Positions 33,795 to 56,852 of a stretch of 64,000 bases of DNA are shown piece after piece. Origin of the DNA: Christensenellaceae bacterium Phil1. GTDB lineage: Bacteria; Bacillota; Clostridia; Christensenellales; CAG-138. Numbering within the stretch: the first letter of the stretch is position 1; each line of letters begins with the position of its first letter. The position numbers were made by a program, and so were the translations under genes. Location of the stretch: the NCBI GenBank assembly GCA_001940855.1, contig MSGS01000031.1:150867-214866 (forward strand), in the 5' to 3' direction. Under the pieces are notes generated by a model. It made no database searches and was not told the origin of the DNA. It worked only from the letters and a program-made list of their open reading frames with translations.

Positions 33795-34442
33795 TTATTG
33801 CGCACTATCGCCGCCGGCCATGCAGGCAGATGCGGCATATACATGCGCGGCGCCCTTTGATTTAAGGGCTTTGGCGCATTCGTTCATTGTTGCGCCGGTG
33901 GTAAACACGTCGTCTATTATAAGTATTCGCTTATCCTTTACGCTGTCGTCAGAGGAAAAGGCGTTCTTCATGTTTTCCGCGCGCTGAGACCTGTCCAGTT
34001 CACGTTGGCTTTTTGTGTCCTTTATTCGCACAGCAAGCGATTCGTCAAGCGTAAGACCATATTTTTTACAAAGTTCGCGGGCAATGAGCGCGCTTTGATT
34101 ATAGCCGCGCTTTTTTAATTTGTTCGGGTGCAGCGGCATAGGCAGCACAGCGTCTATCTGCCAATCCTTTGGCAATTCTATAAGCGAAGCAAAGAAACGG
34201 CAAAGGTAGCGCGCATCGTTATATTTATAGTTGTGTACAGCGGCTGCAATATGCTCGGTGTAATGCACGGCGCAGTAGATATTGTCTATAAAACCGCTGC
34301 CGCCTATTATGCCGGCGGGCTGTATCAATGCCGCGCATTCGGCACAAAGCCCATGTATATCGGCATGCGCCTCGCTGCCGCATATGGCGCAGGCGAGATT
34401 CGGCGGATATATTGCGTCAAGTATCGTCTCTGTCAGTCGGCT
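33795..34442 (-). CDS. comF: ComF-family phosphoribosyltransferase-like protein
   Basis: 215 aa from ATG 34442, 6 nt after GGGAG; a start 33 nt earlier is less likely. N-terminal zinc-finger (CAICG...CAEC), then a PRTase domain with PLHPNKLKKRGYNQSALIA and the PRPP loop ILIIDDVFTTGATMNE. In competent bacteria ComFC takes part in DNA uptake. It overlaps recD2 by 26 bp, so the pair is likely cotranscribed. Confidence 0.9.
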   Translation of the reverse strand, partial: SRLTETILDAIYPPNLACAICGSEAHADIHGLCAECAALIQPAGIIGGSGFIDNIYCAVHYTEHIAAAVHNYKYNDARYLCRFFASLIELPKDWQIDAVLPMPLHPNKLKKRGYNQSALIARELCKKYGLTLDESLAVRIKDTKSQRELDRSQRAENMKNAFSSDDSVKDKRILIIDDVFTTGATMNECAKALKSKGAAHVYAASACMAGGDSAQ

Positions 34443-36660
34443 CATGGCTGCTCCCGTTAAGTACAATGGTATCAAGTTCCATCAGCAGGCATTTAAGCGC
34501 GCTGTAACGGTGGCGAATTTGGTTGTTGTCCACCATGTCATATATGCATTTGCTGCTGCCAAGCATGAATACCTGCTCACGCGCCCGGGTTACGGCGGTA
34601 TAGAGCAAATTACGCGTCATAAGCTGCGGTGCGCCGCCGGCGATGGGCATTATGACAACGGGATATTCGCTGCCCTGGCTTTTATGCACCGTTGAAGCAT
34701 ATGCAAGATTCAGTTCATCAAGCATTGAATAATCATAAGCCGCAGCGCGTTCATCATCGAACAAAACGGTAACTTCCTGTTCGGACAGGTTTATCCGCTC
34801 TATCGTGCCAAGGTCTCCATTGAATACGCCCGTGCCTTCCTCGCCGGATTTTGCGCGTTTCCAAGGAATTTTATAATCGTTCTTTATCTGCATCACCTTG
34901 TCGCCTTCGCGCAGTATCATCTCCCCCTGCTTGCGCTCTTTTTTATAAGGTGAAGGCGGATTGAGCGCGGCCTGAAGCCTTGCGTTCAGGTTTATCGCGC
35001 CGAGCGCTCCTTTTTTCATGGGCACAAGCACCTGTGCGTCCTTTATCGGTTCCGTAGTCATAAGCTTATTCGTTTTGCCCGAGCACAGCGTAATAACGCG
35101 GCGTATTATCTGCTCCGCGCCGACTATTTCTTCGAAACGGAAGTCGTCCGCATTCGCGAAAAGATTAGGCTGCTTGCCGTCATTTATACGGTGCGCGTTT
35201 TCAACTATCATGCCGCGCTCTGCTTGGCGGAATATATCAGTAAGCCGAATAACCGGCACAACGCCGCTGGCAATAACATCCCTCAATACATTGCCCGGTC
35301 CTACCGGCGGAAGCTGATCAGCATCGCCGACCATTATAAGGTGCGTCCCGCTCGGCGTGGCCCTGAGCAGCGAGCGCATTAGCAAAACATCCACCATGGA
35401 CATTTCGTCAACTATTATAACATCCGTCAGCAGCGGATTATCTTCATCGTACAGGAATCTATCGCCGGATGTGCCGTAGCCGAGCATGCGGTGTATGGTA
35501 CGCGCTTCAGCACCAGTAGCTTCGCTCATGCGCTTTGCGGCGCGCCCCGTGGGCGCACAAAGCTGATAATCAAGCCCCATGCGCTCTATGAGGCGGATTA
35601 TGAATTTGAGTATTGTGGTTTTACCTGTGCCGGGGCCGCCGGTTATGACCATTGCGCCGTTTTTCAGCGCCGTTTCAACGGCCTTTCTCTGCTGCGGCGC
35701 AAGCGGAATTTTAAGCTCCTTTTCAAGGGCGTTTATCTGCGCGTTTATACCGAGCATAAGCTGCATGCCGTCGCGCGAAGCAATTCCCACAAGCCGCCGT
35801 GCGCATTCGCTTTCTGCGCTGTACATGCCGGGCAAGAATACGGCGTCCGTATTGTCTATCAGCTTATACAGCACGTCGCCAGAAATGATAAGCTCATCAA
35901 GCATCTCCTCGGCGGGAAGAGTATCAACATGCAGAAGCTGGCAGGCTACGCTTAAAAGCTTTTCCCGCGGAAGGAAAGTATGCCCTTCCTGCCGCGCCCA
36001 TTGCAGCGTGTATTTAAGCCCGGCTTTGATGCGAAATGGCGAATCCGGTTCAAAGCCAGCCTTTACGGCCAATTTATCCGCCGTGATGAAGCCTATGCCT
36101 TCAATATCATCTATCAGTCTGTACGGGTTCTCTTTCAGCTTCGCTATGCACAGCGCACCGTATGTGTTATAAAGCTTCATGCTTTGCGCAACGGTTATGC
36201 CAAATTCCTGCAGCGAAAGCATGACATCGCGCATACCTTTTTGCATGGCGAACGACTCAGCTATTTTATTTGCCCTGAGGCGGCCTATGCCGGGTACTTC
36301 ACGCAGGCGCTCAGGCTCGTTTTCAAGTACGTTGAGCGTATCCATGCCGAATGTTGAAACAATGTCGCGCGCCGTGGCTTCGCCAACGCCTTTTATAAGC
36401 CCACTGCCAAGGTAGCTTATCAGTGCGCTCAGCGATGCCGGGGCAATGGTTTTGCTCTCTTTTGCCTTCAATTGCGGGCCGTATGCGGGATGTTCAACCC
36501 AATCGCCTGTAAACTCCGCCCGTTCGCCAATGGTTATAAGCGGCAGCGGGCCGACTACTGTGCGTTCATCGCCATTGTCATCCGTAACTTCAATAACGCT
36601 GTATCCGTTTTCAGCGTTCCTGTATATTATGCTTTTTACTGTACCCTTCAGCGTATCCAA
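34417..36660 (-). CDS. recD2: RecD2-type 5'-3' DNA helicase
   Basis: SF1B helicase in DNA repair, not part of RecBCD. 747 aa. I choose TTG 36660 because GGGAGG lies exactly 8 nt upstream and the product then begins LDTLKGTVKSIIYRN, the usual RecD2 start; an ATG at 36678 would place that site inside the gene. N-terminal OB and helix-hairpin-helix region (VPGIGRLRANKIAESF), Walker A GGPGTGKTT, Walker B VDEMSMV, C-terminal YASTVHKSQGSEYPVV. Confidence 0.94.
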   Translation of the reverse strand: MDTLKGTVKSIIYRNAENGYSVIEVTDDNGDERTVVGPLPLITIGERAEFTGDWVEHPAYGPQLKAKESKTIAPASLSALISYLGSGLIKGVGEATARDIVSTFGMDTLNVLENEPERLREVPGIGRLRANKIAESFAMQKGMRDVMLSLQEFGITVAQSMKLYNTYGALCIAKLKENPYRLIDDIEGIGFITADKLAVKAGFEPDSPFRIKAGLKYTLQWARQEGHTFLPREKLLSVACQLLHVDTLPAEEMLDELIISGDVLYKLIDNTDAVFLPGMYSAESECARRLVGIASRDGMQLMLGINAQINALEKELKIPLAPQQRKAVETALKNGAMVITGGPGTGKTTILKFIIRLIERMGLDYQLCAPTGRAAKRMSEATGAEARTIHRMLGYGTSGDRFLYDEDNPLLTDVIIVDEMSMVDVLLMRSLLRATPSGTHLIMVGDADQLPPVGPGNVLRDVIASGVVPVIRLTDIFRQAERGMIVENAHRINDGKQPNLFANADDFRFEEIVGAEQIIRRVITLCSGKTNKLMTTEPIKDAQVLVPMKKGALGAINLNARLQAALNPPSPYKKERKQGEMILREGDKVMQIKNDYKIPWKRAKSGEEGTGVFNGDLGTIERINLSEQEVTVLFDDERAAAYDYSMLDELNLAYASTVHKSQGSEYPVVIMPIAGGAPQLMTRNLLYTAVTRAREQVFMLGSSKCIYDMVDNNQIRHRYSALKCLLMELDTIVLNGSSHEPTDRDDT

Positions 36661-36807
36661 AGTAAAAGCCTCCCTCATGTGCCATGGTCATTCTATCATA
36701 TATGGCGTTGTGAGGCAAAGCCTTTCTAAAAAGCACGTTAGACTTAGGCAATCTTTAGAAATATGATGCATAAGCATATGCATAAATGTTGTTTTGGAGG
36801 GTGCAAT

Positions 36808-37434
36808 ATGAAGATATTTGTTATCACGAAAAAGATGCTCATAATCGCGGCGGCGGTAATATTCGTTGTCGCGGCAGCTGTAATTATCGCGCTGTCGTTT
36901 TCCGATGGAGCAGTATCGCCAACGTCTGCCATGGCGCAGCTGGAGGAATATGAACTTGAGGTATTGGCAGGCAAGAAAAAAGAACTGCCCGTTTATAGCG
37001 TTGAGAGGAGCGACATGAAAATAGCCATAACCGTTGACGCGGCATGGGAGGACGATAAGACGCAGTTCATACTGGATACGTTTGATGAATACGGCGTAAA
37101 GGCAACGTTTTTCCTTTGCGGGTATTGGACGGATAAATATCCGGACGATGTGAAGATGATAGCCGAGCGGGGCCACGAAATAGGCAACCACAGCGCAACT
37201 CATCCGCATATGAACAGCATATCGAAAGAGCAGATGCGCAAGGAAACCGTTGAATACGACGACAAAATAGAAAAACTTGCCGGCAAACGCTGCAAGGTAT
37301 TCCGCGCGCCTTTCGGCGAATATAACGACACCGTAATAACCACGATGCGCTCCCTTGGGTACGAGGTGATACAATGGGATATTGATACCATGGATACCAT
37401 ATGTAAAGGCGGATTTTGGGTAAATTATTTATGA
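36808..37434 (+). pseudogene. PdaB-like polysaccharide deacetylase, C-terminus lost
   Basis: 208 codons from ATG 36808 (GGAGG 7 nt upstream). Signal anchor about 8-32, then an NodB-type fold of the sporulation PdaB kind: TVDAAWEDD (motif 1), GHEIGNHSATHPHM (motif 2, metal His), FRAPFGEYN (motif 3), GYEVIQWDIDTMD (motif 4). Homology stops there; the last residues TICKGGFWVNYL are unrelated and a stop follows. Motif 5, the LFHN-type segment with the catalytic His, and about 50 residues are missing. The break lies just before the repeat-flanked island. Probably inactive. Confidence 0.75.
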
Positions 37435-37561
37435 GGGGCGGAGAGTTGGCGCTGAGCTAATGCTTGTTTTTCTTTTTCGGCTCATTATGATACGAATTCT
37501 TTTCTCGTTTGCACTATTGCCTCATTTACCAACTCCCTATGACGTATTATAGCACAAAAAT
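37435..37561. other. Junction segment between broken deacetylase and repeat copy A
   Basis: 127 bp with no gene. It contains an inverted 7-mer, GAGTTGG at 37443-37449 and CCAACTC at 37529-37535, and on the minus strand an extended -10 box (TGCTATAAT) at about 37545-37553. Possibly a remnant of the event that broke the deacetylase. No transposase motif seen. Confidence 0.4.
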
Positions 37562-37641
37562 AAAACAAAAGGCAGAAGCTGTTACCCTTCTGCCTTTTGC
37601 CGTTGTTGTTATGTTGTTTTTTATTTACCCGTTAGGGCATG
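37562..37641 (-). ncRNA. Candidate small RNA (copy A)
   Basis: The minus-strand promoter in repeat A and the hairpin with T-rich 3' side would yield a transcript of about 80 nt with no open frame of note. Same unit in repeat B. Inferred from promoter and terminator only. Confidence 0.3.
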
Positions 37642-37850
37642 TCTTAATTATAGCACGGAAAACCGAATATGCAAGTTCAGATTTCTTTATATTACCTTAT
37701 AATGCGAATTAGATGCAAACATCAGCATTTAGCAGCATCAGCAGTGCGCCAGCTTAATCATCTTGCACCCATATCGCTGTGCACGAACTCAATTTTGGCT
37801 TATCCCTTACTGCTCGTTTATGCATTCTTTTTACGCTTAAAAGCAACAAA
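37562..37850. repeat. 289-bp direct repeat, copy A
   Basis: Matches 48020-48308 over its full length without gaps; I count 8 mismatches (97.2% identity). It carries, read on the minus strand, the last codons of a cell-wall-anchored protein (FVAFKRKK + 2 aa + stop), a near-consensus promoter (TTGCAT at 37674-37669, 16 nt, TATAAT at 37652-37647) and a 13-bp terminator hairpin (37566-37599). In this copy the anchor-protein reading frame is headless. Marks the left end of the accessory island. Confidence 0.95.
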
Positions 37851-37947
37851 CTTATCCCACAAAGGACCTAACCATACTTTGCCTAATAATGGCAAAAGCA
37901 GTATTAGGGCGGCTGCAATATAGCGGCCGCCCAAGCGTTTTCAATTA

Positions 37948-38811
37948 TTACCGCATTCCGTTTTCATCTAAGTCCAGCCCTTTATTTCTGAGAAACTTGC
38001 GGTAACCTTCTGCTGTCATTGCGGTATCCTCATTGCTCGGATAGTAACAGCCGAACCAATATTGATACGCCGTAAGGAATCCCTGTTCGTTTACTTGCTC
38101 CATTGCTTTTTCCGCAAACTCCGTGCCATATTGCCTTATGAGGATTTTTTGCAGCTGTGCGCAGCGGGCGGCATTTGCAGCAAAATGCGGCTTTCCGCAT
38201 TTTTCAATATGATGTGGATACAGCTTCTCCATGCTCATATCCTTATACGTTTCATGATGCACTATCACATCGTATGGATACTTGCGGGAGCGTTGGCTGT
38301 TTGAGCGCGGATATCCAAGCGTTAGCATAAAAGCGGGTATCACATGCTCCGGTAAATTCAAAAGCTCCGATACTTCATCCGCATTATCTACAACATTTCC
38401 GTTATAGCAGCTGCGTAATCCCTCCGCTTCTGCCGCCAGCACAAGGGTTTGTGCGCTGATGGTAGCATCAATAATTCCCATCCAAAGCGTACATATTGCA
38501 TAATCCTGTCCGTAGGGTGCGCCCTCATATTCGGCAATTCTGCGCATCCTGTGCCCATCTATGCAGAATACCAGATTGATAGGCGCATCGGCAATAAAGC
38601 GCTGATTCCGTGAAATGCGCGCAAGTGTGTCCTTTTTTTCCTGATCTGCAATCTCAACGATGGATATCCGTTGAAAACCGCCTGCGCTCGGTGCAGAACA
38701 GGCAGCCTCATATAGCCTGGCCATCACCTCTTGAGGAATCGGATCCGGTTTGAAAGACCGACAGGTGCGCCGGTCTTTCAATAGCTTATACAAATCAATT
38801 TGCTCAGCCAT
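37948..38811 (-). CDS. Nitroreductase-family flavoprotein
   Basis: 287 aa, FMN-dependent oxidoreductase fold. N-terminal DRRTCRSFKPDPIP (FMN phosphate-binding Arg/Ser pattern), APSAGGFQRISIVEI, and ATISAQTLVLAAEAEGLRSCYNG, where the usual GLG is EGL-R-SCY. The C-terminal 90 residues (FAANAARCAQLQKILIRQYG; YWFGCYYPSNED) are not typical of short nitroreductases. Last gene of the island operon; its start overlaps the preceding gene by 8 bp. Substrate unknown. A hairpin GGGCGGC / GCCGCCC lies right after the stop. Confidence 0.85.
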   Translation of the reverse strand: MAEQIDLYKLLKDRRTCRSFKPDPIPQEVMARLYEAACSAPSAGGFQRISIVEIADQEKKDTLARISRNQRFIADAPINLVFCIDGHRMRRIAEYEGAPYGQDYAICTLWMGIIDATISAQTLVLAAEAEGLRSCYNGNVVDNADEVSELLNLPEHVIPAFMLTLGYPRSNSQRSRKYPYDVIVHHETYKDMSMEKLYPHHIEKCGKPHFAANAARCAQLQKILIRQYGTEFAEKAMEQVNEQGFLTAYQYWFGCYYPSNEDTAMTAEGYRKFLRNKGLDLDENGMR

Positions 38812-39535
38812 TTTCGTATCCTTTGGGCAGCGTTACGGATTTGAGTACATGCAGCCCGTTCCGGTATCCCATGGAAATTATATGCTCACAATAGCGTAAG
38901 CCGTTGCGGAGAGGCTCAATTACCATAATGGGGCAGTTGCGCGCCTGAAGCTTTTCACGGAGCAAATCTATCATGCAGTGCATGGCGGTGCAGCCCAAGC
39001 ATACCGCACCGATGCGCTCCGTTTCATGCAGCGTGCAGCAGACATTCGCAACGCGTTCCGCTAAGGCTTCAGGATCACTCTGCAAATCCAGAACGCCCAT
39101 TTCAACAGGGACGATTGCCGCAACGCGCTCGGAAATCCCCAGCATTCTTGCTTTGCGTTCCTCGCTTAATACCCCGAATTTATCCGTTGTAATTACGGCA
39201 ATCCTTTCGGCAAGGGAGAGCGCAGTCATCATTGCCGGAACATAGCCGCCAAATACGGGGATGGACAGCACTTCCCGACATTCGTATACTCCCGGGTCAT
39301 CAAAGCAATTTATGAATATGCCGTCAAACCCATCCCTTTCCGCCTGAATCGCTGACGCAATAATTTGGGGCTTATTAAATGCCGCATGCAAATCGCATTC
39401 CACAGACGGAAAGCCTTTTGACATATGTGCATAGTCTATCTCGGTATCCGGACGCAGGCTTTCCCGGATATACTTGTCGTTTGTCCTCAGCCGATCGGAA
39501 CTTTTTACAACCGCGTCAATGATTTTAATTCTCAT
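38804..39535 (-). CDS. Asp/Glu/hydantoin racemase-family protein
   Basis: 243 aa. Two-domain racemase fold with the paired cysteines at matching places: INCFDDPG and LGCTAMHCM. Such enzymes racemise amino acids or hydantoins without a cofactor. MSKGFPSVEC near the N-terminus takes the place of the usual GPxSIE loop of hydantoin racemases. One base separates it from the DUF917 gene. Reaction inferred from family and neighbours only. Confidence 0.8.
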   Translation of the reverse strand: MRIKIIDAVVKSSDRLRTNDKYIRESLRPDTEIDYAHMSKGFPSVECDLHAAFNKPQIIASAIQAERDGFDGIFINCFDDPGVYECREVLSIPVFGGYVPAMMTALSLAERIAVITTDKFGVLSEERKARMLGISERVAAIVPVEMGVLDLQSDPEALAERVANVCCTLHETERIGAVCLGCTAMHCMIDLLREKLQARNCPIMVIEPLRNGLRYCEHIISMGYRNGLHVLKSVTLPKGYENG

Positions 39536-39536
39536 G

Positions 39537-40637
39537 TTATTTTCCCATAGGCTTCCAGTCTACATCGTATCCAAAGCTGCGCGGCCCGAAAACTTCAAGT
39601 CCTTTTTCGGTAGTCCATTCCTTAGGAGCAGGCAGGATAATGACCGAAACGGCTTCTCCTTCCTGAGCATACGGGTTCAGCTGCGGCTCCTTAGCGTCAT
39701 CGTTGAACACACAGATAAGATCGGGCACCGTAATGTAATACTCACCGTTTTTCCAAAGAATGATATTCTCGTTTTGATACCATATCTTGTATTCATTTCC
39801 GGCAAACTCACCGCTGCCGTCAATAAGCATGGTTCCTATGGTGTAGCCATCTTCGGTTCCCCAGTCGTTCCTGCGAATCTTACCGCGCAGCGCCACAAAG
39901 CCTTCGCCGGCCTTTGCGACGGCCTCTGCATAGTCCTGTCCTGCCGCAAGTGCGGAGCGGTAGACATGCCCTATATGCTGGGTATATGAAATTGCGCCGC
40001 GGATGACGGATTTCCCGATCACTTCGGCGGTATTAGCATGGTCGCATACCGCAGTTGTATTCTGGCTGGCAACTGCAAAAGCACGTGCGATTGCTTCCGC
40101 GCGATAGTCGTTCACAACGTCCTTAACAATAAGGCTTTCGCCAAACTTGTTTACAAGCGACATTGGCGTAATGGGTACATCATGCAGATAGAAGGTTGAA
40201 TGCTGCAAGCAGGGGACAGAACGACCGGCGGGATCGCCATCCACAATTATCTTATCTCCCATGGCAGCACAGTAAAGCGCTTTCGCGGTGTTTCCGGCGC
40301 CGATTTCCGTTGAAATCACGGCCTTAACCGGCTTGCCGAGATATTCTTCCATGCTTTTAAGCGCCTTAATATGATAAGTATCCTCCTGTACAGGCAAGCC
40401 TTCGTATTTTTTGCGTTCTTCCTCACTCAAGGGTGATATCGCACCGCAGGAATACGGGCAGACTATGATATCGTCCGCATCAAGTTCGTCAAAGGAGGCA
40501 AGAGTAAATGTTTTACCCTTGCTTATTGCAAGGTCTATGCATGCAAGTCCCTTAGTAAGGCTTCCTCCGCCGCCTGTACCCAGAATGGCGCCGCCGTAAA
40601 GTATATCCAAAATGTCTTCTCTGCTTAAAACTTTCAT
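39537..40637 (-). CDS. DUF917-family protein
   Basis: 366 aa, full-length DUF917 (S-methyl-thiohydantoin desulfurase-like) with the typical start LSREDILDILYGGAILGTGG and the EIGAGNTAKALYCAAMG and VDGDPAGRSVP segments. The family is found next to hydantoinases, oxoprolinases and transporters; biochemical role is poorly known. Its place between a racemase-like and an AroM-like gene supports hydantoin-type or modified amino acid metabolism. GAAAGGAG precedes the start. Confidence 0.88.
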   Translation of the reverse strand: MKVLSREDILDILYGGAILGTGGGGSLTKGLACIDLAISKGKTFTLASFDELDADDIIVCPYSCGAISPLSEEERKKYEGLPVQEDTYHIKALKSMEEYLGKPVKAVISTEIGAGNTAKALYCAAMGDKIIVDGDPAGRSVPCLQHSTFYLHDVPITPMSLVNKFGESLIVKDVVNDYRAEAIARAFAVASQNTTAVCDHANTAEVIGKSVIRGAISYTQHIGHVYRSALAAGQDYAEAVAKAGEGFVALRGKIRRNDWGTEDGYTIGTMLIDGSGEFAGNEYKIWYQNENIILWKNGEYYITVPDLICVFNDDAKEPQLNPYAQEGEAVSVIILPAPKEWTTEKGLEVFGPRSFGYDVDWKPMGK

Positions 40638-40696
40638 AAATGCTCCTTTCTTGTTACGCTGCCATATGGCAGAATAGTTTTAGTGGTTTAGTGTGG

Positions 40697-41359
40697 TTAG
40701 GAAACAATAGCCTTCAAAAGCGCAGGCACTACCACACGAGGCACAAATACCTGCTTACCTGATGCTGCCTGAATCATTTTACCAGCTTCCTCCGTGAACC
40801 CCATGCAATCCGTCATAAGTATATCTACGTCACTATCGCGGAACGAAGCTGCAGCCGCTTCAATTTGCTCCCTTGTTCCATATGGTGACGCTGCGCGGAT
40901 ACGCGGAGAAAACTCGCTATAATAGGCCTCCGAAGCTGCAATTTGCTCAGGCTTGGGTACAATGGCGCCCAGCCGCTTTACGCCCATTGCCCTGAACAGT
41001 GAGAAAAGAATCTTTTCCGGAACAAAAACGGGCATACGCATATCCGGAATATCAAAGTGGCCGGTACAAAGTATCAACGCAGCAACAGACCCGCCTTTCT
41101 CTGCCTCTATCAAGCGTTCATTTACAAGGCGAATCGCATTATGCTCTGCTATGCGTACCTCACGCCCCGTGTGCAGAGAGCTGACAATCAACATTTCAGA
41201 GCCTTGCGGGGCAAGCATATCTATTTCCTCCTCGCTCATGCCGTCAAGAATGCCATGCATTTCCACATCACAGTCCTGAGCAAACATATTATATATGTCG
41301 TGCATTTTAGTATTAGCCGGGATTTGCCCCATTGTGACAATTGTTATCTTTTTTCGCAT
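40697..41359 (-). CDS. AroM-family protein
   Basis: 220 aa, AroM family of unknown reaction. Seen: MRKKITIVTMGQIPANTK, GILDGMSEEEIDMLAPQG, LHTGREVRI, LCTGHFD, TDCMGFTEEAG. The fold resembles Asp/Glu racemases, and two cysteines (LCTGHF and TDCMGF) lie where racemases have their pair, so the island has two members of this superfold. It overlaps the end of the ATPase gene by 16 bp. Confidence 0.85.
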   Translation of the reverse strand: MRKKITIVTMGQIPANTKMHDIYNMFAQDCDVEMHGILDGMSEEEIDMLAPQGSEMLIVSSLHTGREVRIAEHNAIRLVNERLIEAEKGGSVAALILCTGHFDIPDMRMPVFVPEKILFSLFRAMGVKRLGAIVPKPEQIAASEAYYSEFSPRIRAASPYGTREQIEAAAASFRDSDVDILMTDCMGFTEEAGKMIQAASGKQVFVPRVVVPALLKAIVS

Positions 41360-43146
41360 TTACATTCTCCTTGTTGCTTGGCAAAATGGATACACGAAAC
41401 ATAATGTGCATCATTTAGATAAATCGGTTCCGGAGTCCAGCTCTTGCATGCTTCGCATGCTTCCGCGCAGCGGGTATGGAAAGCACAGCCTGAAGGCGGA
41501 TTAATCGGACTCGGAATTGCACCTTCCAACGTAGTCAACTGATCCATACCCAACTTTTCAAATTGGGGTATGGCGTTAAACAGTGCCTTGGTATACGGGT
41601 GCTGCGGATTGCTGAATACCTCCGATGCAGGGCCAAACTCCGCAATTTTGCCCAGATACATTACGGCAATCTTATTGGCCATTTGACTCACTACGCCAAG
41701 GTCATGCGAAATCAATATGTTCGTAAGCTGGAATTTTTCCTTCAGCTCACGGAGCAGTTCCAATATCTGCGCCTGAGAAAACACGTCGATGGGGGATGTA
41801 GGCTCATCCAGCACCACCAGCTTGGGGTTAGATGCAAGCGAGCGGGCGATTGCGATGCGCTGCCGCTCTCCGCCGGAAAATTCATGCGGATATTTGTGTG
41901 CATCATCCCGGCTGAGGCCTACCATCTCCAGCAGCTGCACAACGCGCGCAAGACGCTCCTGTCCATGCAGCTTCTCATATGCATCCAGCGGTTCGGCAAC
42001 GATTTCTTTTACGAGCCAACGCGGATTCAGGGACCAGTACGGATCCTGGAACACTATCTGCACATTCTTTTTGAATGCGTTTCGGTTTTTGCGCTCATCC
42101 GAAAACACGTCCTTGCCGTCAAAGTACACCTTTCCGTCCGTAGGATCGTATAGGTTCAGGATCGTATTAACCAAGGTGGATTTTCCGCATCCGCTTTCGC
42201 CTACGATGCCCAGCACCTCGCCTTTATTCAGGGTGAAGCTTACATCATCCACGGCTTTGAGGCTCAGCTTCTTATTCTTTTTCTTAACGTCAAAGTATTT
42301 TTTAAGATGCTCTACGCGCAGCAGTTCCTCCCCTGCTTCTACTTCCTCTGCGGGAGCTATATGCAGCCGTGCGGCATCAACAAGCATGCGTGTATATTCC
42401 TGCTCCGGCGCACGTATTATCCGCTCCGTTTCGCCTTCCTCGATTATACGCCCTTCATGAAGTATGCCTATCCTGTCACAGAACGCGGAAACAAGGCTCA
42501 TGTTGTTGGCAATAAAGAGAACCGTAATGCCAAGCGTTTCCTGCAGCTCCTTGAGCAGCTTGAGGATGCTTGCCTGAATGGTTACATCAAGATTGCGCGT
42601 GGGCTCGTCCGCAATAAGGAACTCCGCACCGCAGCATAGCGCAAGCGCAATAATTATACGCTGACGCTGTCCGCCGGAAAGCTGATGCGGATATTTTTTC
42701 AGCGTACTCTCCGCATCCACCAGCTTTACCATGTCCAGCACCTTATACGCATACTCAGTCGCTTCCTTGCCATGAAGTCCCCGATTCGTGCGGATTACAT
42801 CATCCAACATCTGGCCAACAGTAAACACGGGATTCAGGCAGGACATGGGATCCTGGAAGATCATTGCTATCTTTTTGCCGCGAATGCTTGACTGCATCTT
42901 ATGCTGACTGTATGTAAGTATATCTTCGCCGTCCAGCATGATGGAGCCCTTTGTGATTTCTCCCGGCGGGCATTGCAGCAGTTTAAGAATCGTAAGCGCA
43001 AGGACGGTTTTTCCCTGTCCGCTTTCGCCGACAATGCCGTATGTTGTTCCCTTTTCAATGGCGATATGCTCTATATTCAGAACTTCCTTAACGCCTTCGG
43101 ATGTTTTATGCCTGACCTGCAGGCCGTTCACTTCAAAATAGCTCAC
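41344..43146 (-). CDS. Fused double ATP-binding protein of peptide ABC importer
   Basis: 600-aa fusion of DppD- and DppF-like ATPases. Half 1: Walker A GESGQGKT, signature LSGGQRQRI, Walker B FLIADEPTRNLD (TRN for the usual TTA). Half 2: Walker [10 protein letters not shown], signature FSGGERQRIAIARSL, Walker B VVLDEPTSPIDV. The C-terminus has the oligopeptide-transporter Cys motif (CAFHTRCAEACEAC). Start is GTG 43146, 8 nt after GAGGAGG. The fused form resembles GsiA. It energises the two permeases encoded upstream. Confidence 0.94.
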   Translation of the reverse strand: MSYFEVNGLQVRHKTSEGVKEVLNIEHIAIEKGTTYGIVGESGQGKTVLALTILKLLQCPPGEITKGSIMLDGEDILTYSQHKMQSSIRGKKIAMIFQDPMSCLNPVFTVGQMLDDVIRTNRGLHGKEATEYAYKVLDMVKLVDAESTLKKYPHQLSGGQRQRIIIALALCCGAEFLIADEPTRNLDVTIQASILKLLKELQETLGITVLFIANNMSLVSAFCDRIGILHEGRIIEEGETERIIRAPEQEYTRMLVDAARLHIAPAEEVEAGEELLRVEHLKKYFDVKKKNKKLSLKAVDDVSFTLNKGEVLGIVGESGCGKSTLVNTILNLYDPTDGKVYFDGKDVFSDERKNRNAFKKNVQIVFQDPYWSLNPRWLVKEIVAEPLDAYEKLHGQERLARVVQLLEMVGLSRDDAHKYPHEFSGGERQRIAIARSLASNPKLVVLDEPTSPIDVFSQAQILELLRELKEKFQLTNILISHDLGVVSQMANKIAVMYLGKIAEFGPASEVFSNPQHPYTKALFNAIPQFEKLGMDQLTTLEGAIPSPINPPSGCAFHTRCAEACEACKSWTPEPIYLNDAHYVSCIHFAKQQGECKCEKR

Positions 43147-43158
43147 GGATGTTCCTCC

Positions 43159-44046
43159 TCATTTCTTACGTGTTTTGGGGTCGAGTATCTCACGCACACC
43201 ATCACCCAGCAAATTGAATGCAAGCACGGTTATGAAGATGGCAATGCCCGGGAACACGCTATACCACCAAATATCCGGGAAGTAGTTGCGTGAGGTGCTT
43301 ATCATCAGTCCCCATTCCGGAGAAGGCGCCTGCGCACCAAGGCCGAGATAGCTCAGCGACGCAATGGTAAGAATAACACCGCCCATATCCATGGACGCCT
43401 GCACCACAACGGGTGAAATCGTATTGGGAATAATATGCTTGGCAACTATCTTCCACTTCGGCGTGCCGATGGTTTCCGCAGCCTGAATGAATTTGCGCTC
43501 TTTAAGCGAGATTGCCTGACCGCGTACAATGCGCGTATACCACGGCCACCATGCAAGCGCAATGGCGAGAATGGCATTATTCAAGCTTGGTCCCAGCATG
43601 GAAACAAGCAGGATTGCCAAAAGCATGGGCGGAAAGCTAAGGAAAATATCAGTAATGCGCATGATTACTTCATCTACCGCGCCGCCGGATGTACCTGCAA
43701 CGGCGCCGAGCGGCACGCCGATAACCAATGACAGGGCTACCGCAAGAACGGCCGTGCTAAGCGATATCCTCGTTCCGTAAAGAACTCGACTAAAAACATC
43801 GCGCCCAAGCTCATCCGTTCCGAATAGGTGCGCCGAAGAAGGGGGCTGGAATTTTACCGAAAGGTTGGTTTTATCCGCTATATCCTGCGGGTAAGGAACA
43901 ATTACGGGGGCAAGCAGAGCAATGACCAAAATCAGTATCAGCGCAATGACTGCCGCCATTGTAAGCGCGTTTTTGCGCAGCATGAATATCATGTCCCGCA
44001 GCTCTTTAATTGTCGGCCGAAGAATATCTTTCATTTTCTGATTCAT
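43159..44046 (-). CDS. Peptide-type ABC permease (DppC-like)
   Basis: 295 aa from ATG 44046 (GGAGG 6 nt upstream; the frame is open earlier). N-terminal helix, FGTDELGRDVFSRVLYGTRISL and the EAA loop (FIQAAETIGTPKWKIVAKHIIPNTI) typical of DppC/OppC permeases; six membrane helices in all. Pairs with the DppB-like subunit. Confidence 0.94.
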   Translation of the reverse strand: MNQKMKDILRPTIKELRDMIFMLRKNALTMAAVIALILILVIALLAPVIVPYPQDIADKTNLSVKFQPPSSAHLFGTDELGRDVFSRVLYGTRISLSTAVLAVALSLVIGVPLGAVAGTSGGAVDEVIMRITDIFLSFPPMLLAILLVSMLGPSLNNAILAIALAWWPWYTRIVRGQAISLKERKFIQAAETIGTPKWKIVAKHIIPNTISPVVVQASMDMGGVILTIASLSYLGLGAQAPSPEWGLMISTSRNYFPDIWWYSVFPGIAIFITVLAFNLLGDGVREILDPKTRKK

Positions 44047-44056
44047 GTTGTCCTCC

Positions 44057-45067
44057 TTACAGCCGGATGCGCGGGTCAAGCGCAATAATGATATCCGCAA
44101 CAAGATTAAGTATTACATAGAATATTGCAGAGATAATTGCAATACCCATAATTGCCGGATAATCCAGCGTAGTAACCGATTTGCTGACGTAGCTTCCTAA
44201 TCCCGGCCAACTGAAAATTGTTTCCGTAAGGAATGTATTGGTCAGCGAATATCCCATGGACAACGCAACAACCGTTGCGGTAGCGCCCAGGGAGTTCTTC
44301 AGCGCATAACGCCAAAGCACCCTGCCTTCCCGTATACCGTAGGATTTTGCGGCGGTTATATAGTCCTCGTTTAGAATTTCAAGCAGCGCAGAGCGCGTCA
44401 TGCGCGCAACGAGTCCGATAGGATAAAGCGCAATGGTAAAGCCAGGCATAATAATATGCACAAAAGCATCTCCCAACAGACCCCATGAACCGGTCAGAAT
44501 GCAGTCGAGTATCAGCATACCCGTAACGTTTGGCACATCGTACATCAGCGATGCACTTATGCTCATGCGTCCGCCAAGCGGCAGCCAGTTGAGGAGACGG
44601 TAAAAGACTAACTGAAATACCATCGCCACCCAGAAAGTCGGCAGCGAAACCGCACCTATTGAGAAAAAGCGGGTGGTGTGATCCAGCATTTTTCCGTTTT
44701 TCTTCGCGGAATAAATTCCCATTGGGATACCCACAAACATTGCAAACAGGAAAGCTACCAGCACCAGCTCCATCGTTGCGGGGAAATAGCTTGCAAGTTC
44801 CTTAGTAATGGGTTCCTTGGTTCGCAATGAACGGCCAAGATCACCGGAAAGAAGATCCTTCAAATAGTTCACATACTGCGTTACCAACGGTTTGTCCAAC
44901 CCAAGCTCAGCAATAGCTTGCTTACGCTGTTCTTCCGTAGCGCGTTCCCCGGCCCATTTGCCGGCTACATCCGAAGGGACGACGCGCGTGATGAAGAACG
45001 TAATGGTGACTACGCCCAGCAATACAATGAGGCCGTTAAGTAATCGTTTTATAATATATTTTACCAT
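44057..45067 (-). CDS. Peptide-type ABC permease (DppB-like)
   Basis: 336 aa. N-terminal IIKRLLNGLIVLLGVVTITF, then a periplasm-facing loop, and the EAA motif (DYITAAKSYGIREGRVLWRYALKNSL). Six helices. Ten base pairs separate it from the next permease gene; 81 bp with two hairpins separate it from the binding-protein gene. Confidence 0.94.
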   Translation of the reverse strand: MVKYIIKRLLNGLIVLLGVVTITFFITRVVPSDVAGKWAGERATEEQRKQAIAELGLDKPLVTQYVNYLKDLLSGDLGRSLRTKEPITKELASYFPATMELVLVAFLFAMFVGIPMGIYSAKKNGKMLDHTTRFFSIGAVSLPTFWVAMVFQLVFYRLLNWLPLGGRMSISASLMYDVPNVTGMLILDCILTGSWGLLGDAFVHIIMPGFTIALYPIGLVARMTRSALLEILNEDYITAAKSYGIREGRVLWRYALKNSLGATATVVALSMGYSLTNTFLTETIFSWPGLGSYVSKSVTTLDYPAIMGIAIISAIFYVILNLVADIIIALDPRIRL

Positions 45068-45094
45068 ATGTTCAGCATTCTCCTTTGTTATGCA

Positions 45095-45146
45095 AAGGGA
45101 GCAGCAGCTCCCCTTGCCGGTGTGCCTTATACCTGTAAAACAGGTA
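45095..45146 (-). promoter_or_regulatory. Two stem-loops between binding-protein and permease genes
   Basis: TACCTG / CAGGTA (45130-45146) and GGGAGC / GCTCCC (45097-45112), without U-runs. Such stem-loops usually stabilise the upstream binding-protein mRNA against 3' decay or cut read-through, so more binding protein than permease is made. Confidence 0.5.
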
Positions 45147-45148
45147 AT

Positions 45149-46717
45149 TTATTTATGGGTTATATTGAAAAACAGTACAGAGTTTGGATACGCCGGGTTA
45201 TAGTAGAAGCCATCGATTTCTTTGGAAACCACACAGGTGAGTACCTGATCGTAAACGGGGATCATATATGCGCCGTCCAAAACTCCCTCCTGCACTTCCT
45301 TGTACAGCTCCTCCGCTCTGGTGCGGTCCGTTGCGGTCAGCCGCATAGCTTCTTCAATCTTTGCATCCCACTCGGGGTTTTTAATATAACTCAGGTTAAA
45401 TGCAGGGGTCTCCTGAGAGTGTACCATGCTCTGGAACCAGCTTGAAGGATCCGCATAATCCGGCCACCATATCATAATGAATATATCCTGCCTGTCCTCG
45501 GGACGCGTAGCACGTGCATGCTCAATATGGGAATCCCAGCCGCGCTCACGGATTTCCATTGTGATGCCGATTTCCTTAAGATATGTCTGCCAAAGCTGCG
45601 CAAGATCCTTGTATTCGGTGTAACCAGACTGGATGGAAAACTCAAGCTTAACAGAGCTTACATCAATACCGGATTTTTCAAGGTATTCCCTCGCCTTATC
45701 CAGGTTAAACTCGTACTGTTTGCAGTTCTCGTCATGTCCCCAAAGACCGGGCGTTACAAGACCGTGGGAAAGCTGTCCGCGATTCTCAAGCACGCCGTTG
45801 ATCACTTCTTCATACGGGAACGAATAAGCAAGCGCTTTGCGGAAATCCTCGTTGCTGCAGGGCTGCTTTTCGCTATTAAAGAATAGCAGTATGTTGTTAT
45901 AAGTATTCAGATACTTAACTTCGACCTTTTCATTTGCCTTCAGCGCGGCTATATCCGTAGTGGAGAAATTGTAGCCGACATGAGCATCGCCCGTTTCAAG
46001 AAGCTGACGGCGGGTACCGCTTTCGACGTGTTTTTTTATGACGACCATTTTATAGGAATTCTCTTTCCATTCCCGCCAATATCCGTCATACGCGGAAAGC
46101 ATTACCTGGTCGCCGGTAACAAGGCTCTTTACGGTGTACGGACCGGAGCCGCCATCATTTCCTTCTTCGCTGTTGAACCAGTCGCCATCCTTATCGCATG
46201 CATCTTCGGATATGATGTAAGCCGCGTAAGCAGCGGAAGCTATCAGGTCTATCGATGTAGACTCGGAGCAGTTGAACCTAACCACATAATCACTTACTAC
46301 TTCAACGGATTCAACATTGGTCCAAATGTATGCAGCACCCTTGCCCAGTTTGATAGTACGATCGATAGACTTTTTGACTGCATTTGCATTCATTTTTGTG
46401 CCGTCATGGAAGCTTACATCCTCACGCAGTGTGAACTCCCATACCGTACCGTCATCGTTGTGCGTCCAGGAGGTAGCAAGATATGGTTCCACCTCGCCGG
46501 TCTGATCGTTGTAGCGGGTTAGCGTTTCATATACATTTTGGAGGACGCATACGCCGTTGGAATTTTCCACACTGGGATCCAGTGTTAGGTAGGGTTCCGA
46601 TCCGCATGCATAGTATAGAATTGCATCCGTGGTAGTTTTGCCGCCGCCCTGTACACAGCCTGCAAAAAGCGAAGCCACCAGAATAACGGCAAGCATCAGT
46701 ACTAAACTTCTTTTCAT
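45149..46717 (-). CDS. Peptide-type ABC substrate-binding lipoprotein
   Basis: Family 5 solute-binding protein, 522 aa. Lipobox FAGC (Cys21) after MKRSLVLMLAVILVASL. Motifs: LQNVYETLTRYN, LATSWTHNDDGTVWEFTLREDVSF, and a long C-lobe (FNLSYIKNPEWDAKIEEAMRLT). First gene of the island operon, divergent from the MerR regulator. AGGAGG lies upstream of the ATG. Ligand unknown; a modified peptide or hydantoin-like compound is inferred from the enzymes. Confidence 0.93.
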   Translation of the reverse strand: MKRSLVLMLAVILVASLFAGCVQGGGKTTTDAILYYACGSEPYLTLDPSVENSNGVCVLQNVYETLTRYNDQTGEVEPYLATSWTHNDDGTVWEFTLREDVSFHDGTKMNANAVKKSIDRTIKLGKGAAYIWTNVESVEVVSDYVVRFNCSESTSIDLIASAAYAAYIISEDACDKDGDWFNSEEGNDGGSGPYTVKSLVTGDQVMLSAYDGYWREWKENSYKMVVIKKHVESGTRRQLLETGDAHVGYNFSTTDIAALKANEKVEVKYLNTYNNILLFFNSEKQPCSNEDFRKALAYSFPYEEVINGVLENRGQLSHGLVTPGLWGHDENCKQYEFNLDKAREYLEKSGIDVSSVKLEFSIQSGYTEYKDLAQLWQTYLKEIGITMEIRERGWDSHIEHARATRPEDRQDIFIMIWWPDYADPSSWFQSMVHSQETPAFNLSYIKNPEWDAKIEEAMRLTATDRTRAEELYKEVQEGVLDGAYMIPVYDQVLTCVVSKEIDGFYYNPAYPNSVLFFNITHK

Positions 46718-46739
46718 GGTTACCTCCTAAATAATGTTA

Positions 46740-46944
46740 TTTATTTGAGCACTGTATCGCAAGTATAAGCGATGACAGGTGTTCATTCGTTGTTCAAAGC
46801 GTTGCATTCCGCAACATTGTTTTGATCTGTTGTTTTGTTCCTACATGCAATCAAAGTTCGTAAGTGGGTATCCCATGCAGATACAGCTCGGTTCCATCTG
46901 CTTGGCAACCCTATCTTTTAACACATTCTAAAGCTTAAAGTTGC
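46740..46944. promoter_or_regulatory. Divergent control region of the island operon
   Basis: About 200 bp between the regulator promoter and the binding-protein gene. On the minus strand a TATACT box lies about 45 nt before the start codon, with no good -35 box at 17 nt, which would fit an activator-dependent promoter. An inverted repeat GTTGC-N5-GCAAC sits at 46801-46815 and could be an operator. Low certainty. Confidence 0.35.
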
Positions 46945-46973
46945 TTGAATGTCAATACCTTTTTTGATATAAT
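46945..46973 (+). promoter_or_regulatory. Promoter of the MerR-family gene
   Basis: TTGAAT (46945-46950), 17-nt spacer, TATAAT (46968-46973). Start codon 38 nt downstream. Confidence 0.75.
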
Positions 46974-47011
46974 TTATAATATACAATAAATAATACGGAG
47001 GACAGCAGAAA

Positions 47012-47776
47012 ATGTGGGATAGGGAGAAAAATAAAACGGTAAGCATTTCAACAATTTCGCAAACATTAGGCATTCCTGCATCAACGCTGCGCTATTGGGA
47101 GTCCATGGGCTTAATCTCTTTAAATCGGTGCGACAACAACTACCGCGAATATACCTATTCTTCCCTGCTGGATCTTAGCGATATATATTATCTGCGTAAG
47201 CTCGGCATTTCCGTCAAGGCCATAAAAGAATATCAAATGTTCAGCCTTGAGGACAGCAAAGCCATATATTTAAACAAGAAAACAGAGCTTGAAGCAGAGA
47301 TCAACAGTTTGCATAATACCTATACCATGCTGCGCAAAACGCTTAACTTAATGGACGAATTGGAGTATATTCGGGAGCATCCTTATAAAGAATCACGGCC
47401 GGATATATCGTTTCTGCTCAGTCACTCCAAGCTTTACGACAAGGAGGTATGGGAGAAACATTTTTCCGGACAGTATCAGTTTGCAGGAGTGCGCTTGGGT
47501 CCGCCGAATTGCGAATGGGTTTGGGGATGGGCTGCAGAATCCCGCAAGCCTGATGAGGAGCTTGCATGGACCTTTGCGGAAGGAGATCGCCACTTTGTGC
47601 AGTTTATCCTTCGCATTGACGTAAAAGACCGCAAACACACCAATTTAGACGAAGCAATAAATTACCTGAAGGCCCGCGGTTATAACATTGGTGAAATCAT
47701 AGTGCGATATATCACAATCGCTTGTGAAGGCCAAACACGCTGGGATTATTATAAGGCATGGATAGAGATTATTTAA
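47012..47776 (+). CDS. MerR-family transcriptional regulator
   Basis: 254 aa. Winged helix-turn-helix SISTISQTLGIPASTLRYWESMGLI, followed by the dimer coiled coil (about 80-115) and a ~135-residue C-terminal domain rich in Trp and Arg (CEWVWGWAAESRKPDEELAW) that probably binds the inducer; no Cys cluster for metals. Divergent from the transporter operon, so likely its local regulator, perhaps sensing the imported compound. GGAGGA lies 9 nt before the ATG. Confidence 0.88.
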   Translation: MWDREKNKTVSISTISQTLGIPASTLRYWESMGLISLNRCDNNYREYTYSSLLDLSDIYYLRKLGISVKAIKEYQMFSLEDSKAIYLNKKTELEAEINSLHNTYTMLRKTLNLMDELEYIREHPYKESRPDISFLLSHSKLYDKEVWEKHFSGQYQFAGVRLGPPNCEWVWGWAAESRKPDEELAWTFAEGDRHFVQFILRIDVKDRKHTNLDEAINYLKARGYNIGEIIVRYITIACEGQTRWDYYKAWIEII

Positions 47777-47981
47777 CTATAAATATGCTCTTACAAATCA
47801 TATCGCACCGCTTCTGCAAATCGGCTATTATGTCGTTTATGTATTCTTCGGGCAGCGTGGTTGATATATCGATTGCTGTATGCACCGCCGTAATATTGCT
47901 GAGATAATAGCTTACCGTCCCGACTAACTTCATAAGATCCTCATCGGCGGTGTTTAAGGGATATGTGTTTTTAACGTGCAT
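47769..47981 (-). CDS. Small conserved-looking protein, unknown
   Basis: 70 aa, not recognised. Helical, acidic; motif DEDLMKLVGTVSYYLSNITAVHTAIDI. GGGAG precedes the ATG by 8 nt. Its 3' end overlaps the end of the MerR-family gene by 8 bp (convergent). The minus-strand promoter in repeat B could drive it if its terminator leaks. Confidence 0.5.
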   Translation of the reverse strand: MHVKNTYPLNTADEDLMKLVGTVSYYLSNITAVHTAIDISTTLPEEYINDIIADLQKRCDMICKSIFIVK

Positions 47982-48019
47982 TTTACCGCTCCCGTTAATT
48001 GATTATAATTGATGATATG

Positions 48020-48099
48020 AAAACAAAAGGCAGAAGCTGTTACCCTTCTGCCTTTTGCCGTTGTTGTTATGTTGTTTTTTATTTACCCGTTAGGGCATG
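48020..48099 (-). ncRNA. Candidate small RNA (copy B)
   Basis: Promoter and terminator in repeat B would give an ~80-nt RNA with a CCC/GGG mini-hairpin, an A-rich middle and the 13-bp terminal hairpin. Identical layout in copy A; the two differ by at most one base in this part. Confidence 0.3.
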
Positions 48100-48308
48100 A
48101 CTTAATTATAGCACGGAAAACCGAATATGCAAGTTCAGATTTCTTTATATTACCTTATAATGCGAATTAGATGCAAACGTCAGCATTTAGCAGCATAAGC
48201 GGTGCGTCAGCTTAATCATCTTGCACCCATATCGCTGTGCACGAACTCAATTTCGGCTTATCCCTTGCTGCTCGTTTATGCCTTCTTTTTACGCTTAAAA
48301 GCAACAAA
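48020..48308. repeat. 289-bp direct repeat, copy B
   Basis: Partner of 37562-37850. Here it overlaps the intact 3' end of the cohesin anchor gene (codons for FVAFKRKKKA and stop at 48276). It contains the 13-bp perfect hairpin CAAAAGGCAGAAG / CTTCTGCCTTTTG at 48024-48057 flanked by A and T runs (works as terminator in either direction), and the minus-strand promoter TTGCAT (48132-48127), 16 nt, TATAAT (48110-48105). Confidence 0.95.
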
Positions 48309-49286
48309 GAGTGCAATGCCGGCTACAAGCAACACTACAGGCAGTATTATGCTGTCCTCATCGCCGGTAACGGGCATTTCAGCCGTAGGCGGAGTAGGCA
48401 CGTTTGAGCCGGACCAACCTGGGTAGGGGTTACCGCCATTGCCGCCCGGATTGCTCGTGGGCTTTACAGTCGGAATAGGAGCCACCGTCGGGCTGGGTGC
48501 TATGGTCGGCGTAGGCGCTACTGTCGGAGAAGGTTCCGATGTCGGAGTGGGCGCTACGGTAGGAGTAGGTTCCGATGTCGGAGTGGGCGCTACGGTAGGA
48601 GTAGGTTCCATAGTCGGAGTAGGTTCAACTGTAGGGCTGGGTTCAACCGTCGGAGTAGGATCGGTCGTAGGAGTAGGATCTACCGTAGGAGTAGGATCTA
48701 CCGTAGGAGTAGGATCTACCGTAGGAGTAGGTTCTATCGTCGGTGTAGGCTCAACCGTAGGGGTAGGTTCTACTGTTGGAGTAGGCGTGGGATCTCCACT
48801 GGCGGGGCTTACGGAAACGGATACGGAATCAGCCGATATAGCGGGGCTATCGGTACCGGGAACCATTACGCATTCCCTAAGGCCTGAGGTAAATGCAGCC
48901 TGAGATTCGTTTGTTATGTCGCTCTTGGTGGTAAAGGTCAGGGTCATTATAACGCCTGCGGGGAGAGTTTGATCAAGGTTCATATCGAACCAGTTAATCT
49001 CAAGATAGTTATCGGGCGCGGTACCTTTTATAAGGTCTGCGCTGAGGTTGCTGCTCACAGAATTGCTGCCCGTAAGTTCGAACAGGTTTCCGTTAAAGCC
49101 CACTGTGAACGTGGCTGAGGCCATATTGATTATAGCCTCCTCAAGCGTAAGCGAAACGTTTACGCTTTCGCCCGCCTTTATGGCGGCGTTATCTACGCTT
49201 GGCGTAAGGCTTTGCGCCAATGCACCGGCTGCAATGCCCAATACCAGCGCAATTGCCAGTACAACAGAAAATAGTCTTTTTTTCAC
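48276..49286 (-). CDS. Sortase-anchored cohesin-domain protein
   Basis: 336 aa. Signal peptide about 1-24; cohesin-like domain 26-162 (IKAGESVNVSLTLEE, FTVGFNGNLFELTG, LEINWFDMN, VIMTLTFTTKS); Pro-Thr hexapeptide spacer 165-278; sortase signal MPVTG at 304-308, hydrophobic helix 313-330 and KRKKKA tail. It should be linked to the cell wall and hold a dockerin partner. The gene just upstream (18 bp gap, same strand) encodes a dockerin, which makes a cognate pair likely. Start is GTG after AAAGGAG. Cellulosome scaffoldins are the known parallel, but no enzymes are seen here. Confidence 0.85.
   Translation of the reverse strand: MKKRLFSVVLAIALVLGIAAGALAQSLTPSVDNAAIKAGESVNVSLTLEEAIINMASATFTVGFNGNLFELTGSNSVSSNLSADLIKGTAPDNYLEINWFDMNLDQTLPAGVIMTLTFTTKSDITNESQAAFTSGLRECVMVPGTDSPAISADSVSVSVSPASGDPTPTPTVEPTPTVEPTPTIEPTPTVDPTPTVDPTPTVDPTPTTDPTPTVEPSPTVEPTPTMEPTPTVAPTPTSEPTPTVAPTPTSEPSPTVAPTPTIAPSPTVAPIPTVKPTSNPGGNGGNPYPGWSGSNVPTPPTAEMPVTGDEDSIILPVVLLVAGIALFVAFKRKKKA
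48456..48791 (-). repeat. 18-bp tandem repeat coding the Pro-Thr spacer
   Basis: About 18 units of 18 bp coding (T/S)V(E/D/A)PTP-type hexapeptides. Units differ by point changes; adjacent VDPTPT units are nearly identical, a sign of slippage. Array length probably varies between strains, which changes how far the cohesin reaches from the wall. Confidence 0.9.
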
Positions 49287-56848: not shown

Positions 56849-56852
56849 TGGT

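Follow-up and report, generated by a model that had tools for sequence, protein, structure and literature searches.

The window analysed here, a 64,000-nt stretch of DNA (C31:150867–214866, i.e., contig C31 of the source genome G000, a draft assembly of 78 contigs), contains a polysaccharide deacetylase ORF that stops partway through its homology, and the question raised by this locus is whether a sporulation enzyme has been lost or whether the rest of its gene lies elsewhere. The product of the ORF (36808–37434, plus strand) has a hydrophobic N-terminal anchor, a match to Pfam PF01522 on residues 67–187 (128 bits), and a C-terminal end that reads ...QWDIDTMDTICKGGFWVNYL up to the stop codon. 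Its top NCBIfam model is TIGR02764 (PdaB), covered over positions 1–132 of 191 only; due to this we regard motif 5 as absent, as a sequence-only reading of this DNA had claimed. That reading also had the homology end after QWDIDTMD, about 40 nt before the stop and about 160 nt before a repeat termed repeat A, and our measurements agree: the final residue of QWDIDTMD ends at 37395, the stop codon ends 39 nt further on at 37434, and 166 nt separate position 37395 from the start of repeat A at 37562. The missing C-terminal end of pdaB was not found within the 64,000-nt window, a further point on which the earlier statement held, and the junction DNA between 37397 and 37561 had no convincing relative in its own genome or in the compared loci. 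The recD2-type helicase gene on the left flank (Table 1) is also divergent to pdaB in several relatives with an intact pdaB.

Using the C-terminal halves of the PdaB proteins of relatives as queries, we located the counterpart at C31:298568–298807, on the same contig and the same plus strand as the N-half, 110,318 bp from it and ~84 kb beyond the window (84% identity to the query over 76 residues). This C-half (DTIDWKEERS...CHNNG...) begins with GATACCATAGATTGGAAAGAAGAACGC and ends with ...VNGVQKLK before its stop codon; the in-frame start given for it in the ORF list is a TTG within element sequence. The left junction is ATTGATACCATGGATACC and the right junction CAGTGATACCATAGATTGG, with TGATACCATRGAT as their common core, and when the halves (C31:187674 and C31:298568) are joined at the GA within this core they form a frame, ...QWDIDTIDWKEERSAKT...ILCHNNG..., that stays open through motif 5. 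The insert thus extends from the GA at window position 37384 to C31:298568, a size of 110,318 bp. The joined protein matches TIGR02764 over positions 1–191 of 191 with 207.7 bits, again as the top NCBIfam model; as this score and those of four intact relatives (202.1–208.4 bits) all miss the curated cut-off of 237.4 bits, we use the name PdaB-like. We are close to certain that this pdaB-like gene was split by an insertion of the large serine recombinase (LSR) type. The idea of a PdaB-type sporulation deacetylase gene broken by insertion is borne out, while truncation is not, the other half being 110 kb away; the suggested loss of a cortex or cell-wall enzyme is contradicted by the open, full-length frame formed by the halves and by the search of the genome for the missing C-terminus, proposed earlier as a check, which placed it on the same contig and strand.

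Table 1. Features of the split pdaB-like gene and its intervening element, in window positions unless a contig position is given.
Feature	Position	Strand	Basis
Left host flank, recD2-type helicase	34417..36678	-	Pfam; divergent to pdaB
pdaB-like N-terminal half (membrane anchor, motifs 1–4 to QWDID) and short element-derived tail	36808..37434	+	ORF, Pfam, NCBIfam; homology stops at 37395
attL, with predicted crossover dinucleotide GA at 37384–37385 and 13-nt shared core TGATACCATRGAT at 37383–37395	37372..37410	+	Junction comparison
attR	C31:298568 (window position 147702, outside the window)		Junction comparison
In-window part of the 110,318-bp intervening element, which continues to C31:298567 and includes the LSR at C31:253962–255461 (-)	37386..64000	.	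Junctions, LSR search
Repeat A copy 1, inside the element	37562..37850	.	Self-comparison
Cargo module: nitroreductase, Asp/Glu racemase, S-Me-THD-like, AroM-like, peptide-type ABC transporter, MerR-type regulator	37948..47776	.	83–84% nt identity to the G070 module
Orphan small ORF, 70 aa (MHVKNTYP...), like the 55-aa ORF before the LSR; no recombinase after it	47772..47981	-	51% over 39 aa
Repeat A copy 2, inside the element, overlapping the 3' end of surface-protein gene 48276–49286	48020..48308	.	Self-comparison

The same break occurs in other genomes. In at least 73 of the 103 genomes from the family of G000 a single frame runs across the junction, so relatives without the island do not have the same short gene, a possibility the sequence-only reading had put forward for checking. 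The halves lie apart, cut at the same codon, in four of the 103 (G000, G018, G070, and G072), and 24 have no pdaB ortholog among the matches listed; G014, with halves at contig ends, and G055 were counted neither as split nor as intact. The gene is split too, at that codon, in G030, which belongs to another family of the same order, and is intact in G021, G071, and G073, members of the genus of G070 and G072. A gene named by eye as an SDR follows pdaB in G071 and G073 and follows the C-half in G070, the right flank of which can thus be checked; the right flank of the G000 C-half had no syntenic match in the relatives, and the contig of G001 stops ~1.2 kb past pdaB. As a separate observation, three contig ends of G014 (both ends of C12 and one of C39; L078/L080) have in common the 3' end of pdaB plus the DNA that follows, as though the assembly graph of this genome branched there, perhaps at a variable site.

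To compare attachment sites we joined the inner arms at the GA as attP and the outer arms as attB for the five split genes (G000, G018, G070, G072, and G030), and in all five genomes the joined frames are open. An inverted repeat in register with the crossover dinucleotide is the layout expected of attP sites of large serine recombinases, and in all five split genes attP is an inverted repeat around the GA, in register with it. The attP dyad matches (of 28) number 14 in G000, 17 in G070, 15 in G072, 17 in G018, and 20 in G030, vs. 7, 7, 6, 10, and 10, respectively, for attB; among 50,000 one-arm shuffles the attP value was reached 382 times for G000, 6 for G070, 349 for G072, and never for G018 or G030, i.e., the attP dyads of G000 and G072 are weaker than those of the other three. 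The GA register was the best or tied best of 364 tried in four of the five, while in G072 one other place scores 16.

Of the 18 places in the genome with PF07508 matches only one, C31:253962–255461 (minus strand), is inside the insert, and it encodes a 499-residue LSR that scores over the cut-offs of PF00239 (119.7 bits), PF07508 (55.4 bits), and PF13408 (39.6 bits). Its identity to the LSRs of the other split genes is 48% for G072, 50% for G070, 46% for G030, and 38% for G018, and in a FastTree tree of 82 LSRs it groups with those of G030, G072, and G070 (support 100 for the four), all of them in a split pdaB. With in-frame halves, a shared core, inverted repeats at the att sites, and an internal recombinase, the locus is, as judged from its sequence, of the skin-like kind in structure. 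The LSR genes of G018, G030, and G072 adjoin an attachment site, the first two lying directly behind the N-half on the opposite strand and the third ~250 bp before the C-half, whereas that of G000 is separated from attL by 65.7 kb and from attR by 43 kb; for this reason the 110 kb may comprise several insertions. A second close recombinase of G000 (C43:5632–7143) was rejected as the pdaB integrase since its clade contains 16 loci lacking a pdaB half within 8 kb, and loss of the recombinase from the element was rejected given the one intact LSR at C31:253962. Also inside the element and near the LSR is an ORF (C31:259663–260496; L071 5663–6496, minus strand) with a Phage_integrase domain and an N-terminal zinc ribbon.

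A scan of reference genomes with the five LSRs identified at least 547 relatives, of which we kept the best 80 loci. A pdaB-like half lies within 8 kb of the LSR at 46 of these 80, cultured isolates included, a fraction that is not a prevalence, given that the loci were selected by similarity to pdaB recombinases and that the 46 include those of three of the five query genomes themselves. Among the best 80 of at least 547, 29 loci have an N-half, 27 a C-half, and 10 both; the N matches all extend to the query's end, which is the Asp codon, the C matches all begin at that codon, and at none of the 46 does a matched half continue past the break. PdaB was the top NCBIfam model for all 10 N-halves tested (10 of the 29, the most divergent included). 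At each of the ten loci with both halves, joining them at the common Asp codon restores the frame, and the gap between them is 3.9–14.9 kb; the hosts include Anaerovorax odorimutans DSM 5092, Caproicibacter fermentans EA1, Oscillibacter ruminantium GH1, and Anaeromassilibacillus senegalensis mt9. For the remaining 34 of the best 80, 14 genomes contain a C-half beginning at the break, in a frame of <200 residues (one is G070), a count made from C-halves only and with contig ends included; a lone C-half in G312 was dropped as it is at a contig end. When we labelled the LSR tree by whether a pdaB half is near (the 46 loci plus the window and L137, which is G070), the label required 13 changes vs. 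25.5 when shuffled, and none of 500 shuffles was as low. On viral contigs, two of 79 recombinase loci (L218 and L222) have a pdaB C-half beside the LSR.

Just upstream of the LSR gene in the G000 element is a 55-residue ORF that is a candidate directionality factor, and a small ORF also precedes the LSR in G070, G072, and G030 (a likeness judged partly by eye); a Pfam search with two of these small ORFs returned no match. By eye, ORFs of 40–70 residues in which YP or HP comes after a short hydrophobic start precede many of the best-80 LSRs, and one is present at L097 2413–2577 (minus strand), while other LSR loci among the best 80 have no such ORF or an unrelated one; ORFs of this kind possibly constitute a family of directionality factors. 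The G070 LSR directly follows a MerR gene, and together with the orphan small ORF of the window (Table 1) this leads us to suggest that G000 may once have had a second LSR next to this ORF or that the insert may be composite.

We scanned four promoter patterns up to 300 nt upstream of the LSRs, the sigma-E-like one being ATA, 14–17 nt, CATA[ACT]..T; for want of sequence the counts omit L156 (7 nt upstream) and one other LSR locus. A sigma-E-like site precedes the LSR at 16 of 45 pdaB loci (from the best 80 of at least 547). Reverse-strand sequence has one at 1 of 45, shuffles give 2.04 of 45 (none of 100 as high), the other LSRs have one in 3 of 33 cases (a count reached in 5 of 100 shuffles), and control regions upstream of other ORFs in these loci have one in 15 of 367; the enrichment has Fisher p values of 2.7e-9 against the controls and 0.008 against the other LSRs. 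A stricter form of the pattern was found before 5 of 45 pdaB LSRs, 1 of 33 other LSRs, and 9 of 367 controls (p = 0.012 against controls). The general CATA...T pattern is enriched upstream of both LSR groups, and the sigma-K-like pattern is not clearly enriched before the LSRs of either (5 of 45 for the pdaB loci, with 19 of 100 shuffles as high). In the G000 element a sigma-E-like site is located just before the small ORF; none was found before the LSR of G070 or G018. Upstream of the pdaB N-halves themselves the sigma-E-like pattern was found at 1 of 28 loci, or, with the region chosen differently, at 3 of 28 (27 loci plus the window). Two of these three are the sister loci L161 and L172, 1.06 would be expected, and 27 of 300 shuffles reached the count; the pattern is absent upstream of the window's N-half, and the sigma-G and sigma-F patterns each occurred at 0 of 28. 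The B. subtilis pdaB gene (spoVIE) is listed in the sigma-E regulon in a passage of PMC4703394, and in C. difficile, according to an excerpt of PMC3789822, three polysaccharide deacetylases, not called PdaB, are under sigma-E and PdaA is made in the forespore.

Selection on the halves was assessed by Nei-Gojobori comparison of pairs, the quoted ranges leaving out the many pairs with saturated dS. Loci L161 and L172 have an orthologous element (91.5% identity over 4,068 nt), with dS values of 0.40 for the LSR, 0.64 for the N-half, and 0.38 for the C-half, and dN/dS values of 0.156 for the N-half, 0.128 for the C-half, and 0.092 for the LSR; selection has thus maintained the two separated halves, provided that the element came down from a common ancestor, as the distances suggest. 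In the C-halves of this pair motif 5, HN(N)G, is changed to FQSS and the His is gone, and the dN/dS is still 0.13; the selected function may then not be deacetylation, and the PdaB-like protein of these two may have lost catalysis and yet be conserved. In the genus of G070 and G072, dN/dS among unsaturated pairs, which do not include G000 itself, is 0.024–0.115 for split vs. intact genes and 0.040–0.167 for intact vs. intact (with G001). A different history is indicated by the LSRs of L146 and L152, which have 97.8% amino acid identity (dS 0.28) while silent-site divergence between the host pdaB N-halves is saturated: elements thus sometimes pass from one host to another, and, to go by these distances, this appears to be a case of recent horizontal transfer into the same codon. 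It follows that a recently arrived element may not yet have met selection.

As for the contents of the element, the module adjoining attL (in which the AroM, ABC, and MerR names were assigned by eye) has 83–84% nucleotide identity to a module in the G070 pdaB element, and four of its genes have 80–87% identity between G000 and G070 vs. only 64–65% for the host genes pdaB and recD2; the module was therefore probably exchanged between genera. Other genes of the insert encode M28 and M18 peptidases, an amidoligase, XdhC, and a protein of the creatininase family; more ABC transporters and a glycan cluster were recognised by eye. No phage structural genes were found among 10 of its 99 ORFs (≥90 residues, mechanically picked) scanned against PHROGs, the matches being to an integrase, an amidoligase, sigma-factor-like and unknown families, or nothing. 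A PHROG integrase match (E-value 1.5e-5) covers the weakly tyrosine-integrase-like N-terminal part of a 375-residue protein adjoining attR (C31:296924–298051; L073 2924–4051, minus strand), an odd fusion that also has a PglD/hexapeptide sugar acyltransferase part. Large surface-type proteins are encoded inside the element at 48276–49286 and 49305–53564 (minus strand), the former having a C-terminal anchor, a proline-threonine linker, and a stretch that weakly resembles cohesin (21.2 bits, under the cut-off). In G072, contig C82 (L118 109–5746) apparently has a pdaB element with uronate-catabolism genes beside the recombinase (by eye). The two copies of repeat A in the window (289 nt each, 97% identical) start with a terminator-like hairpin, and a third copy of 148 nt (93% identical) is located 3 kb right of the window, at C31:217907–218054 (L036 1501–1648); we found no copy outside the element in a search of the G000 genome. 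The insertion border in pdaB is not repeat A, and the inserted unit is not the 10.5 kb 'island' between its two copies in the window: all three copies are inside the element, the break is 177 nt earlier, within attachment-site-like sequence, and the insert runs from window position 37384 to C31:298568.

In our view the short ORF is very likely the 5' portion of a sporulation gene of the pdaB-like type, interrupted by a 110 kb element that an LSR can excise, and regulated rejoining of the gene is likely as well. The element LSR would have integrated at the GA in the conserved motif-4 sequence QWD-x-D|-x-x-D-W, and the element's own recombinase could probably cut it out again: the LSR and a directionality factor, for which the 55-residue ORF is the candidate, would excise the element and leave an intact pdaB-like gene. 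By analogy with skin in sigK and SP-beta in spsM, excision would most likely take place in the mother cell during sporulation, and the sigma-E-type promoter before the small ORF and the recombinase could act as the switch; as a result, the spore chromosome would keep the element. The reading that best fits the recurrent pdaB elements is, on the same analogy, a family of skin-like intervening elements whose excision in the mother cell may rebuild pdaB.

Were the enzyme simply lost, its gene disrupted by an insertion or deletion and the two pieces decaying, one would expect what the window by itself offers, an N-half alone; we consider this extremely improbable, as both halves are open and rejoin in frame and, in the genus of G070 and G072, the dN/dS of split vs. 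intact genes is no higher than that of intact genes. Less probable still, to the point of being scarcely credible, is that C31 is a chimeric contig and the halves are adjacent in the real genome: the assembly is a draft of many contigs, but the non-pdaB sequences at the two ends jointly form an attP-like dyad, and other genomes have the same break with both halves on one contig.

More serious, though still unlikely, is an ordinary mobile element (prophage, ICE, or cargo island) that uses pdaB motif 4 as a convenient, conserved attB and excises solely for transfer, leaving the host with a broken gene. The phage-like genes (by eye) of the G030 element agree with this, as do the pdaB C-halves beside viral-contig recombinases, the near-identical LSRs of L146 and L152 in hosts whose genes are far apart, which indicate that elements move, and the greater similarity of cargo than of host genes between G000 and G070. 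Against this stand the purifying selection on both halves in L161 and L172, which share their element by descent, the sigma-E-like promoters enriched before pdaB-associated LSRs, and the size of the ten elements with both halves, the smaller of which seem too small for independent transfer.

More tentatively, with somewhat less than an even chance of being right, we speculate that pdaB motif 4 is a class-wide docking site and the split gene a protected, reloadable cargo bay, holding anything from 4 kb relics to the 110 kb element. Related LSRs would keep pdaB split in many Clostridia families; as sporulation would need the rebuilt gene, an element would be hard to lose, which would make the site a protected one, and metabolic modules could pass from the element of one genus to that of another, persisting in the spore line while the mother cell discards them.

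If regulated rejoining is correct, pdaB is a new target on the short list of sporulation genes split by excisable elements, and the serine recombinases of these elements form a group for which attB is shared and attP sites are predicted. Our results suggest that split spore genes are common in little-studied Clostridia, where annotation would call such a gene truncated or missing. The cultured strains Anaerovorax odorimutans DSM 5092, Caproicibacter fermentans EA1, and Oscillibacter ruminantium GH1, with elements of 4–7 kb, make the prediction testable by PCR.

Among known systems, the fdxN element of heterocyst cyanobacteria and its recombinase XisF constitute an excision system of a terminal cell type. 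XisF (NF041201) is the top NCBIfam match of the G000 LSR, but at 149.8 bits this is far below the cut-off of 375 and the LSR is not an XisF. Sporulation genes described as split in the passages drawn on from PMC6957869, PMC10747680, and PMC5595907 are sigK, spoVFB (spoIVFB in one passage), spoVR, spsM, gerE, and yabG, nearly all of them mother-cell genes; the word deacetylase is absent from the main text of these three papers, as it is from that of the LSR-target study PMC10083194, and literature searches, in which few subscription papers were represented, found no report of a split pdaB among the listed titles and abstract openings. A close parallel is skin, which in B. subtilis and C. difficile likewise splits a sporulation gene, sigK, in frame with a serine-recombinase element, and the small ORF just before the recombinase, our candidate factor, is placed as Skr is before SpoIVCA (a passage of PMC6957869); in our case the target is a pdaB-like gene, the recombinase and att site differ, and excision is a prediction. 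Passages of the same paper describe sigma-E or mother-cell control for the directionality factors of both skin and SP-beta. SP-beta in spsM, vfbin in spoVFB, the spoVR element (all in excerpts of PMC6957869), and yin in yabG (an excerpt of PMC10747680) are elements in sporulation genes as well, with targets other than pdaB. Finally, gin, a 28.6 kb element in the B. cereus gene gerE, contains no phage genes according to part of PMC5595907 and brings cargo into a sporulation gene, as the G000 element does; the latter differs in its size of 110 kb, its transport and peptidase cargo, and a module in common with another genus.
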